DNA from: a virus | Virus record (IMG/VR): IMGVR_UViG_3300007735_000804 | Span: 1-64,000 of that record | Length of the DNA: 64,000 bases | Direction: 5' to 3' (one strand) | Shown: positions 7,658 to 41,745 of the stretch, in pieces | Position numbering within the stretch: position 1 is the first letter of the stretch | How the letters are laid out: each line of letters starts with the position of its first letter | Translations under genes and position numbers: made by a program | Notes under the pieces: generated by a model | The model's database searches: none | Told to the model about the DNA's origin: nothing | The model's input: the letters and a program-made list of their open reading frames with translations, nothing else

Positions 7658-8086
7658 TTATTGGTGCTTTTGTAGGTATTTAATCATTTCTTCTAGAAGA
7701 TTTACATTATCACCTACTTGACCCAATACCATATTACAGTTCCTACAAAGCAACTGACGAACTTTACCTGTCTTATGATCGTGGTCTACACAAAGTTTTT
7801 TCCATTTACCATCACCTTCACCTTTACAAATAGCACAAACTCCTTTTTGCTCATCAAACATTTCTTGGTGTTCTTGAAGAGTTATACCATAGTTTCTTTT
7901 CAAGTCATTATTTCTTGTGCGTTCTGGATTATCTTGATGTCTTTTTTTAACTCTTTCTTTATCACATTCTTTACAAGATGAGTGACGAACCATAGTAGTT
8001 TTATTTCTTACATAAAAATCCGTAGCAAGTTTTTCTTTACCACAAGATATACAAGTTCTATAAAGTTCGGAGTATAGTTTAGTCAT
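7658..8086 (-). CDS. Endonuclease VII-like (HNH) nuclease, candidate psbA homing endonuclease
   Basis: Protein of 142 residues. The C-terminal half is a recombination-endonuclease-VII fold: CAIC at 84-87, the catalytic VDHDHKTGKVR around 100-110, and CRNC at 114-117. The N-terminal half has another paired CxxC (12-15, 38-41). It sits immediately downstream of an intron-containing psbA and has its own late promoter (TATAAATA, 24 bp upstream). A free-standing homing endonuclease next to an intron-bearing psbA is known from phage S-PM2 (F-CphI). By position this gene is a candidate for the same role: cutting intronless psbA. A role in DNA branch resolution is the alternative. Confidence 0.85.
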   Translation of the reverse strand: MTKLYSELYRTCISCGKEKLATDFYVRNKTTMVRHSSCKECDKERVKKRHQDNPERTRNNDLKRNYGITLQEHQEMFDEQKGVCAICKGEGDGKWKKLCVDHDHKTGKVRQLLCRNCNMVLGQVGDNVNLLEEMIKYLQKHQ

Positions 8087-8109
8087 TCGTGTTTTCTTTC
8101 GTGCATAAT

Positions 8110-8117
8110 TATTTATA
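8110..8117 (-). promoter_or_regulatory. Consensus T4-type late promoter TATAAATA
   Basis: Exact TATAAATA, directly continuous with the U-tract of the psbA terminator and 24 bp before the endonuclease VII-like gene. Confidence 0.75.
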
Positions 8118-8142
8118 AAAAAAGGAACTCCGAAGAGTTCCT
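8117..8142 (-). terminator. Intrinsic terminator of psbA
   Basis: Perfect stem AGGAACTC/GAGTTCCT with a UUCG tetraloop followed by seven T, 11 bp after the psbA stop codon. Confidence 0.9.
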
Positions 8143-8146
8143 TAAC

Positions 8147-8176
8147 ATTATATCACCCGATGGATGGTGCAGTCAA
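8147..8176 (-). promoter_or_regulatory. Sigma70-like promoter TTGACT-N18-TATAAT over the psbA stop
   Basis: The -35 lies in the last psbA codons and the -10 directly follows the stop codon. Transcription would start at the edge of the terminator stem. It may be fortuitous, but both hexamers are near consensus. Confidence 0.35.
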
Positions 8177-9439
8177 GGCAACCGAAGTTGTTTGAGCAGC
8201 AGCAAGGTCAAGTGGGAAGTTGTGAGCATTCCTTCTGTTTTAACCTCTGTCGCCAGAGGGAGCGGACTATATCATCACTTATAAGAGTGTCGGACGCTAG
8301 TGGCGTATTACGGATGAAGCGTCATCCACCGCCTAGTCTCTGAACCTTCCTTACACGCTTGCAAGGCTTGGATGCTGATTGTCTACAAGAGAGTTCCAGC
8401 AATTCATCCGATTTAACGAGCGCCATGCAGACACAAAACGCTCATGCATTACCTCAATCCCTAAATTAGCAGAATTCAATACATCTGCCCAAGTTTTAAT
8501 AACACGGTTTTGACTATCAGTAATGCTTTGAACAAAGTTAAATCCATTGAGATTATAACTCATAGTAGCAATACCTAAAGAAGTAAACCAAATTCCAACT
8601 ACAGGAAGTGCTGCTAGGAAAAAGTGCAGTGAACGGGAATTATTAAATGATGCGTATTGAAAAATCAATCGACCGAAATACCCGTGAGCAGCAACAATAT
8701 TATAGGTTTCCTCTTCTTGACCAAACTTGTATCCATAGTTTTGTGATTCAGATTCAGTCGTTTCACGAATGAGTGAAGAAGTAACCAAAGAACCGTGCAT
8801 TGCTCCAGCAAATGCACCACCAAAAACACCTGCAACTCCCATCATATGAAAAGGATGCATAAGGATATTGTGTTCTGCTTGGAATACAAGCATAAAGTTA
8901 AAAGTTCCAGAAATACCGAGAGGCATACCATCACTAAAACTTCCTTGTCCAATTGGATAGAGAAGAAATACCGCAGTTGCAGCAATAGCAGGAGCAGAAT
9001 AAGCAACAAAAATCCAAGGACGCATACCAAGACGATAAGAGAGTTCCCACTCTCGCATAGCATACATCCAAATACCAATCAGGAAGTGAAAAACAATTAG
9101 TTGATATTCACCACCATTATATGCCCATTCTTCTAAGGATTGTGCTTCCCAGATTGGGTAAAAGTGCAGTCCAATTGCATTGGACGAAGGAACAACAGCA
9201 CCAGAAATGATGTTGTTTCCCCACATAAGAGAACCAGCAACGGGTTCCCTAATACCGTCAATGTCTGTTGGGGGTGCTGCAATAAAAGCAAGAATAAAGC
9301 AAGCAGTAGCAGCAATAAGACACGGAATCATAATAGTTCCCGACCACCCCACATAAAGTCGGTTGTCGGTAGAAGTAACCCACTGGCAAAAAGATTCCCA
9401 AGGGTTAGTAGAATTGCGTTGTGCAATAGAAGCAGTCAT
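8153..9439 (-). CDS. psbA: Photosystem II D1 protein, interrupted by a group I intron
   Basis: Two exons, 9439-8438 (334 codons) and 8230-8153 (25 codons plus stop), encode a 359-residue D1. The start is [18 protein letters not shown]; an in-frame upstream ATG at 9541 would add an unrelated 34 residues. D1 landmarks are present: SDG (D170), QAEHN (E189, H198), MHPFH (H215) and the QB loop SFNNSRS. Mn-cluster ligands H332 and E333 end the first exon (VMHER). H337, D342 and A344 are in the second exon ([10 protein letters not shown]). Phage D1 replaces damaged host D1 in thylakoid photosystem II during infection. Substitutions such as YVGWSG (usually YVGWFG) are unusual. The promoter carries overlapping early and late elements. 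Confidence 0.95.
8231..8437 (-). other. Group I self-splicing intron in psbA (207 nt, no ORF)
   Basis: Removal joins codons 334 and 335 exactly. Exon 1 ends in U. The intron starts UUUGUGUC and ends AGAAGG. P1 can form between exon GAGCGU and intron GCGCUC, with the required terminal U-G wobble at the splice site. The conserved core elements are readable in order: P (AAUUGCUGGAA), Q (AAUCAGCAUCCAAGCC), R (GUUCAGAGACUA) and S (GAUAUAGUCC). Without splicing the frame would run 31 codons into the intron and lose three Mn ligands. The short length without an internal nuclease gene, plus a free-standing nuclease downstream, resembles the S-PM2 arrangement. Confidence 0.95.
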
Positions 9440-9604
9440 TTTCGTTAAAGGGTAAGTAAAAGTCCAGGGGGAACTGGATAGTACGTTATTCCCCACAGCA
9501 CCCTCCACTGTGGGCATGAGAGACGTTTTTATACTCCCCATAGGTCTCGGTTAGTGGGAGTCACAGTGTTGCGAAATGTTTTAATTTCGTAACATTTGTT
9601 TACC

Positions 9605-40396: not shown

Positions 40397-41068
40397 TTAA
40401 TCGAAGATTCTTCCCCATCCATCATTACCTCCTGGGCACCAACGATACTTCAACATAGCCTTTGTATAAATGGTCTTCTTACCGTTGGTAACAGGACCAG
40501 TGTAGTTGTCATTACACGAACCATATGGGTCATTACAATAGTAACCTTTGCCATCTGGTGTTTTACCGATGACTACAACCATGTGCCCACCAGTAGGAGC
40601 AGAAAGAGGACCCCTGTGGAGGATACCAATAACGACAGGTTTCCCAGCGTCAAGACTTTTATCAATGTCAGCAAAAGAAAGATTGTAACTAAAGTGTGAC
40701 TTAACTCCATAACCTGCCAGAACCTTTGTCTGAACCGCATGGTCAGTCGTGTCACCAATCGCAAATACTTTCTTGACATACTCATCGTCGCCTTTGATGC
40801 TGCCTGGCTTGAGGAAAGCAAGGCACATAGCGCACGATGAACTGTTACAAGTTCTATGTGCATCTCTATAGTTATCTACTTGATTAAAGTATGGAACATC
40901 GAGTACTGCTGGTGTTGGTGGTTTTGTTCTGTAAATACCAATCCAGTCAGTCTCTGCGTCATCTAGGAATTGAGCAGGAAGGTTATCTTCTAACCATTGA
41001 ACTGCCGCTACATGATTTGAATTTTTTTCGTCGTAAAATTTAAAAAAATTGTGAAGGTCTAGTGTCAT
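40397..41068 (-). CDS. Papain-like (C39-type) peptidase with shared N-terminal domain
   Basis: Protein of 223 residues. N-terminus TLDLHNFFKFYDEKNSNHVA and AVQWLEDNLPAQFLDD duplicates that of the endolysin. The catalytic part has the cysteine-peptidase triad layout: DVPYFNQVDNYRDAHRTCNS-SSCAMCLAFL (nucleophile Cys), GGHMVVVIG (His) and YCNDPYG (Asp). It likely cleaves a peptide bond, perhaps peptidoglycan cross-links, as the partner of the GH24 endolysin. Overlaps the upstream gene by 29 bp. Confidence 0.8.
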   Translation of the reverse strand: MTLDLHNFFKFYDEKNSNHVAAVQWLEDNLPAQFLDDAETDWIGIYRTKPPTPAVLDVPYFNQVDNYRDAHRTCNSSSCAMCLAFLKPGSIKGDDEYVKKVFAIGDTTDHAVQTKVLAGYGVKSHFSYNLSFADIDKSLDAGKPVVIGILHRGPLSAPTGGHMVVVIGKTPDGKGYYCNDPYGSCNDNYTGPVTNGKKTIYTKAMLKYRWCPGGNDGWGRIFD

Positions 41069-41246
41069 CTCCCTCTCCTATGAACTCTAATGAGAAAATG
41101 TCATGATCAGGAATTTCTGGATTCAACCATTCACGAAATTCAGATTGAATCGCATGGGCATCTTCAATGTTCTTTTCACAGAGAGTATGAATACGGTCAA
41201 CTGCCCAATCATGTGTTTGGCGAAGAGTCTTTTCCAAAGTTTCCAT
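41040..41246 (-). CDS. Hypothetical protein, 68 residues
   Basis: Sequence METLEKTLRQTHDWAVDRIH, then CEKNIEDAHAIQSEFREWLN and an acidic end. All-helical. Its 5' end overlaps the GIY-YIG gene by 38 bp and it is served by a consensus early promoter. Function unknown. Confidence 0.65.
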   Translation of the reverse strand: METLEKTLRQTHDWAVDRIHTLCEKNIEDAHAIQSEFREWLNPEIPDHDIFSLEFIGEGDDTRPSQFF

Positions 41247-41658
41247 AATCTTTTCGCATATAGCGTCCTAGAATATTGCTATTATAGTACGCAGGAGAAC
41301 CATCGTCAAGAGACTCGATCAACACATTATTTAGGAAAAGTTGTTTTGTTTCTTCATAGTTACACTGTCCTTTGGTTCGATGGAGGCTAAGTATTCTTCT
41401 GTCGCAGGATGCTTTTCCCCAAACGTCAATGTCTGCTTTAAGTTCTGGGCAGGAACCGTAATACTTTTTCCAATCAGACTCTGATTTAACTTTTCTACTT
41501 TTTCCTTTTGGTTTACGAAAACTCCACAGATACTTCCTCCCAATATATTTACGACCAGTTGGACGGCAATGTATAAGATATACAAAACCAAAATAATCTT
41601 GAATATGATCAGAATCAAATACTTCCCCATTGTAGATCCAGGGATTCTCATAGCTCAT
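41209..41658 (-). CDS. GIY-YIG-type putative endonuclease
   Basis: Protein of 149 residues with a GIY-YIG-like core: FGFVYLIHCRPTGRKYIGRK near 23-42 (the Y-x-Y and YIG strands), then a basic segment (KPKGKSRKVKSESDWKKYYG) and NYEETKQLF with the acidic metal-site Glu. Plausible free-standing homing or repair endonuclease. The start codon lies in a perfect 10-bp hairpin, and both an early and a late promoter are upstream. Confidence 0.75.
   Translation of the reverse strand: MSYENPWIYNGEVFDSDHIQDYFGFVYLIHCRPTGRKYIGRKYLWSFRKPKGKSRKVKSESDWKKYYGSCPELKADIDVWGKASCDRRILSLHRTKGQCNYEETKQLFLNNVLIESLDDGSPAYYNSNILGRYMRKDYGNFGKDSSPNT
41281..41309 (-). promoter_or_regulatory. Early promoter TTGACG-N17-TATAAT
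   Basis: Within the last codons of the GIY-YIG gene, 35 bp before the 68-residue gene. It would drive the hydrolase operon early or in the middle period. Confidence 0.75.
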
Positions 41659-41688
41659 ATTAAAGTATCTTATGAGCTATTATTTATC
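41650..41688 (-). promoter_or_regulatory. Late promoter plus hairpin that buries the start codon
   Basis: GATAAATA (41681-41688) is followed by the perfect inverted repeat ATAGCTCATA / TATGAGCTAT (41680-41671 and 41659-41650, 11-nt loop). The second arm contains the ATG. A late transcript would begin inside the first arm and could not form the full stem. A longer early transcript could. Confidence 0.7.
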
Positions 41689-41706
41689 TTCAACGGGAAC
41701 AAAGCA

Positions 41707-41745
41707 ATTCTAGCAATAAAAAAGCACCCCTGTCAAGAGGTGCTT
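41707..41745 (-). promoter_or_regulatory. Terminator with embedded early promoter (TTGACA-N18-TAGAAT)
   Basis: Stem AAGCACC/GGTGCTT and T6 end the 389-residue gene. The loop holds TTGACA (41731-41736); TAGAAT is at 41707-41712. It would make the early transcript of the GIY-YIG gene. Confidence 0.8.

Follow-up and report, generated by a model that had tools for sequence, protein, structure and literature searches.

Only a few genes of coliphages and Aeromonas phages are known to carry the T4 late-unlocked switch. Hairpins with this logic have been described for e, soc, I-TevI-III, segB and mobE (PMC3014915, PMC2988022), and a review lists no early promoter for free-standing endonucleases (PMC2988022). 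In cyanophages, NATAAATA is the late promoter, and middle genes have been described with early plus late promoters (PMC2984593). A literature search, with most subscription papers outside its reach, turned up no cyanophage for which such a switch is described. Here, the leader of a segE gene is analysed, which probably acts as a T4-type late-unlocked translational switch. The gene was found in a 64,000-nucleotide stretch (the window), part of a 213,274-base virus record resembling T4-like cyanophages such as S-SRM01, and its leader, read on the minus strand, separates a 389-aa gene from the 149-aa ORF of segE itself (Table 1).

Table 1. Features of the segE locus (window positions) and of other genes with comparable leaders (genome positions).
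Feature	Position	Strand	Basis or remark
C39-peptidase/endolysin-like gene, 223 aa	40397..41068	minus	PF13529 3.5e-15; phrog_10051 endolysin 4.7e-77
68-aa ORF overlapping segE end	41040..41246	minus	Most of 80 related loci have it ~412 nt past the segE start
SegE-type GIY-YIG protein, 149 aa	41209..41658	minus	PF19835 SegE_GIY-YIG 1.8e-51, full profile
Right arm UAUGAGCUAU	41650..41659	minus	Contains ATG 41658-41656
Left arm AUAGCUCAUA	41671..41680	minus	Directly 3' of late octamer; conservation in relatives
Predicted late RNA start, inside left arm	41675 (+/- 1 nt)	minus	Inferred from T4 geometry
Late promoter octamer GATAAATA	41681..41688	minus	22 nt before ATG; adjoins left arm
Predicted early sigma-70-like promoter TTGACA-18-TAGAAT	41707..41736	minus	Sequence; relatives; -35 TTGACA 41736-41731, 18-nt spacer, -10 TAGAAT 41712-41707
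Intrinsic terminator of upstream gene: 10-bp stem, loop TGAC, T6	41718..41745	minus	Fold, -14.3 kcal/mol, z -5.2
I-TevI-like GIY-YIG gene	genome 64302-64835 (L082:302-835), just outside window		PF01541 plus PF20987
Endonuclease-VII-like gene	genome 75131-75715 (L082:11131-11715)		PF02945
Small gene of unknown function, after tRNAs	genome 157250-157555 (L086:13250-13555)		phrog_4134

The profile match of the 149-aa protein bears out the GIY-YIG part of the original prediction, which had called the gene a homing nuclease; homing is unproven, since segE is syntenic. In most of 80 loci it is preceded by nrdB and followed by the 68-aa ORF and endolysin-like genes, and because this place is conserved, segE is suggested to be a resident nuclease. 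The 68-aa ORF is in turn overlapped by the endolysin-like gene. S-SRM01 carries a diverged segE copy among genes of the opposite strand. Both phrog_447 and many cyanophage records label SegE-type proteins 'NAD synthetase', which appears to be an error.

A perfect 10-bp hairpin burying the start codon of the GIY-YIG gene, with an early promoter upstream of it and a late element that would start RNA within its first arm, had been claimed for this leader, and all coordinates hold. The arms enclose an 11-nt loop, and the AUG sits in the right arm, where it is predicted to be sequestered in the long RNA: for the 46-nt leader, a fold of -11.2 kcal/mol was obtained (z -4.2, matched by none of 200 shuffles), and for RNA from the predicted late start one of just -1.5 kcal/mol. 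Upstream of the segE start, no Shine-Dalgarno sequence was seen. In a 77-nt context, z is only -1.1, yet the hairpin is present in the best structure; because of this unremarkable value, the energy by itself would not be convincing. Analysis of the 213,274-base genome revealed 14 perfect 10-bp inverted repeats (loop 3-15), with 9, 1 and 2 in simulated genomes, and of the 14, the segE hairpin alone coincides with a start codon.

For RNA crossing segE early, a conserved sigma-70-like promoter is present, but it is overlapped by a terminator. TTGACA followed by a -10 box was found in 91/94 related leaders at a spacing of 16-18, including leaders without a terminator. In the window, TTGACA also forms the loop/upper stem of the intrinsic terminator, which the original prediction had missed; a terminator-like structure overlaps TTGACA in 62/91 related leaders, with stem sequences that differ widely around a constant TTGACA. 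Two more copies of a promoter-like stretch, TTGACA-17-TAGACT...TTTGTCT...TTGAAGAT, were observed at genome +76358 and -148306, the former (+ strand) with no predicted gene downstream.

T4 late promoters place the octamer at -13 to -6 relative to the RNA start. In this genome, N[A/C]TAAATA shows strong enrichment at a distance of 14-28 nt from gene starts, on their upstream side, and 35 NATAAATA octamers lie at most 80 nt upstream of predicted genes, most commonly 18-22 nt before the start. Over the whole genome, CTAAATA was seen 8 times at 14-28 nt before starts (0.29 expected), and neither GTAAATA nor TTAAATA showed enrichment there; judged by position, CTAAATA appears to behave as a late promoter variant.

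For comparison with relatives, 236 SegE sequences (the window's included) were reduced to 177 distinct leaders, 165 of them with an octamer. Of the cultured relatives, S-SKS1 (host Synechococcus WH7803) shares the segE leader of the window. The window's clade comprised 96 distinct leaders of related cyanophages, and 35 leaders of a SegE lineage in which segE follows another upstream ORF served as the comparison set. The original prediction had been staked in part on conservation of the hairpin, and the hairpin is conserved: in the 96 clade leaders, conservation is 99-100% at octamer positions and 92-98% in the left-arm stretch ATAGCTC, drops to 77-80% in the AT that follows, and reaches only about 40-70% in the loop. 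Significant complementarity between left arm and start region was present in 96% of clade leaders vs 3% of the 35, and the latter lineage (~35 leaders) has the late octamer and lacks such a hairpin. The second codon, for serine, reads AGY in nearly all related leaders, and a G-C or G-U pair is thereby kept. Within the clade, 90% of arm cells were paired, vs 23-46% when the arms were slid. Compensatory change, proposed as a further check, gave a mixed answer: the covariation score of the clade was reached by 7/500 shuffles, a modest excess, and a second pairing count showed no excess over shuffles, the weakness of the signal being due to arms that hardly vary.

In other SegE lineages, unrelated hairpins occupy the same place. 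S-CREM1 and L101-L103 have one (in S-CREM1 at -13.7 kcal/mol, with the octamer at or in the left arm), and in L243 the octamer ends the left arm of another, which falls from -14.0 to -2.8 kcal/mol. The segE hairpins of L245 and S-SCSM1 are weaker (z -1.9 and -1.2), and segE of ACG-2014j and P-SSM2 has the late octamer and no such hairpin. Clade-wide energy clustering of SegE leaders was too coarse for use.

The genome was scanned for start regions that open in late-started relative to long RNA by at least 5 kcal/mol. Among 44 octamer-gene pairs, five genes were picked: segE, the I-TevI-like, endonuclease-VII-like and phrog_4134 genes, and a gp25-like gene; 4% of genes without a late octamer passed the same opening-energy test, which is its chance level. 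The clearest case is the endonuclease-VII-like gene, in which the right arm holds the Shine-Dalgarno sequence GGAG, the octamer lies between the arms, and the hairpin falls from -15.8 to 0 kcal/mol in late RNA. Its relatives (L377-L422) provide 15 distinct arm pairs with 166/180 cells paired (2/2000 shuffles as good) and both-sided, compensatory changes at 5/12 pairs; a 19-row alignment, with the long-loop group left out, was not decisive for covariation, and L377 has the full hairpin without an octamer.

The I-TevI-like gene, flanked by a clamp-loader-like gene and another gene, has a 15-bp hairpin over the ATG and a Shine-Dalgarno-like GAGG, with a CTAAATA octamer within the left arm. This hairpin falls from -19.2 to -1.4 kcal/mol in late RNA and is conserved in relatives L247-L292, whose alignment showed no covariation and was not decisive. 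The sequence TATAAATA at the hairpin foot was rejected as the late octamer: relatives mostly have TGTAAATA or TTTAAATA, and since these are unenriched before starts, CTAAATA within the left arm is preferred. For the phrog_4134 gene, the late octamer and start-masking hairpin are kept although the sequences upstream, tRNAs and others, differ greatly; a short stem persists in the predicted late RNA, and consensus folding of its leaders found no compensatory pairs. The gp25-like baseplate gene (genome 120447-120848, L084:16447-16848) has arms GAACATA/TATGTTC with the octamer overlapping the left arm. At a head-closure (TnsA-like) gene (genome 180056), the palindrome CTAAATAC...GTATTTAG was set aside; it resembled a further case, but its right arm reads as an opposite-strand late octamer, and divergent late promoters would account for it. 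The psbA region of the window (7658-9571) includes PhotoRC-II RNA, an endonuclease-VII-like ORF (7658-8086) and a group I intron (8243-8482), an arrangement reminiscent of psbA in S-PM2.

Family searches revealed four endonuclease genes of these kinds in the genome, 4/4 with a late octamer and 3/4 with a hairpin; the opening-energy test was passed by 3/4 endonuclease vs 2/38 other late genes (Fisher p 0.003, in a comparison set up post hoc). Since the same logic recurs with unrelated hairpins on two other endonuclease genes, the switch looks recurrent rather than accidental. For the same reason, and because unrelated hairpins take the same place in other SegE lineages, the "ancient or convergent" control of the original prediction can be narrowed, with convergence favoured over an ancient origin.

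The same elements could be read in other ways. The inverted repeat could act as DNA, as an operator through which SegE, for instance, represses itself, much as I-TevI represses its own late promoter via an overlapping operator (PMC2988022), and the conserved stretch of the clade leaders does extend upstream of the octamer. However, the 7-bp arms are ~16 to 21 nt apart, depending on the leader, and about half of the leaders have the right arm AGT, which pairs as G-U in RNA and breaks the palindrome in DNA; variable loop length and G-U for G-C therefore fit an RNA hairpin better than an operator, which is quite unlikely given also the unrelated repeats in other lineages and a layout common to other genes. 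If ATAGCTC extended the late promoter or belonged to the initial transcribed sequence, and matched the start codon by chance, its high conservation directly 3' of the octamer would be explained. This is very improbable, since ATAGCTC follows no other late octamer in this genome, hairpins of other lineages and genes are unrelated, and octamer-arm spacing shifts with pairing kept, as in L018, L025, L189 and L230, where the octamer, TCTAAATA, stands 3 nt away from its usual place beside the arm.

An RNA hairpin could also affect RNA stability or lower translation constantly, its placement relative to the late promoter being secondary. The 5'-UTR hairpin of S-PM2d psbA, near early and late promoters, has been read in this way (PMC5931967), and both the short stem retained in phrog_4134 late RNA and the octamer-less hairpin of L377 would fit. 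This explanation is nevertheless unlikely, as the arms adjoin or flank the octamer in the SegE, I-TevI-like and endonuclease-VII-like genes, so that late RNA loses the fold.

For the late-unlocked switch, we infer both RNA starts, the block and the release from the promoter elements, predicted folds, conservation and recurrence. Early RNA from TTGACA-18-TAGAAT would carry both arms, leaving the start codon and preceding region double-stranded and segE little translated. A phage late sigma factor of the gp55 type would use GATAAATA, with RNA beginning ~6 nt past the octamer and thus within the left arm; a stem of only 5 bp would be left, too short to hold, and the start codon would be free. Across the genes with this layout, late RNA would begin either within the left arm or beyond it. 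The presumable purpose is to keep a DNA-cutting enzyme, perhaps with the overlapping endolysin-like genes, off until late. An early promoter on a masked gene may serve early expression of downstream genes; in the opposite case, the segE/68-aa ORF/endolysin-like overlaps would couple translation and keep all of them silent until late. A wider reading, offered tentatively and with some doubt, is that late-unlocked start hairpins on DNA-cutting genes have arisen repeatedly and independently in cyanophages, and that here the switch gates the overlapping segE/68-aa ORF/endolysin-like operon via translational coupling, one conserved early promoter yielding a deliberately silent transcript. The predicted switch is found on several cyanophage nuclease genes, with unrelated hairpins and, for one gene, compensatory change. 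This points to repeated selection for late-only endonuclease translation in the T4 superfamily, and the cyanophage genes offer examples, in phages with photosynthetic hosts, on which it could readily be tested.

Compared with described systems, the anatomy fits, on predicted folds, the logic of T4 I-TevI, e and soc, as originally proposed (PMC3014915, PMC2988022). As in the T4 e, soc and 49 leaders, where the Shine-Dalgarno and/or AUG are buried in long RNAs and freed in late ones, the segE start would be masked and released; unlike these, which precede other genes, segE is overlapped by an ORF, which is in turn overlapped by an endolysin-like gene (PMC3014915). The S-PM2d psbA leader shares with segE a cyanophage setting, early and late promoters together and a 5'-UTR hairpin, but that hairpin has been read as an mRNA stability/light response element, not as a late-unlocked start (PMC5931967). 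A further likeness is to T4 I-TevI, I-TevII, I-TevIII, segB and Aeh1 mobE, endonuclease genes with GIY-YIG members among them, in which the initiation region is masked in upstream-started RNA and the late promoter is placed so that late RNA is without the 5' arm (PMC2988022). The T4/Aeh1 set masks the Shine-Dalgarno sequence, whereas segE would mask its AUG. A T4 counterpart of a dedicated early promoter on a masked gene was not found in two reviews (PMC2988022, PMC3014915); the early RNA of the T4/Aeh1 set is read-through from neighbours (PMC2988022), whereas segE has a dedicated, conserved predicted early promoter of its own.
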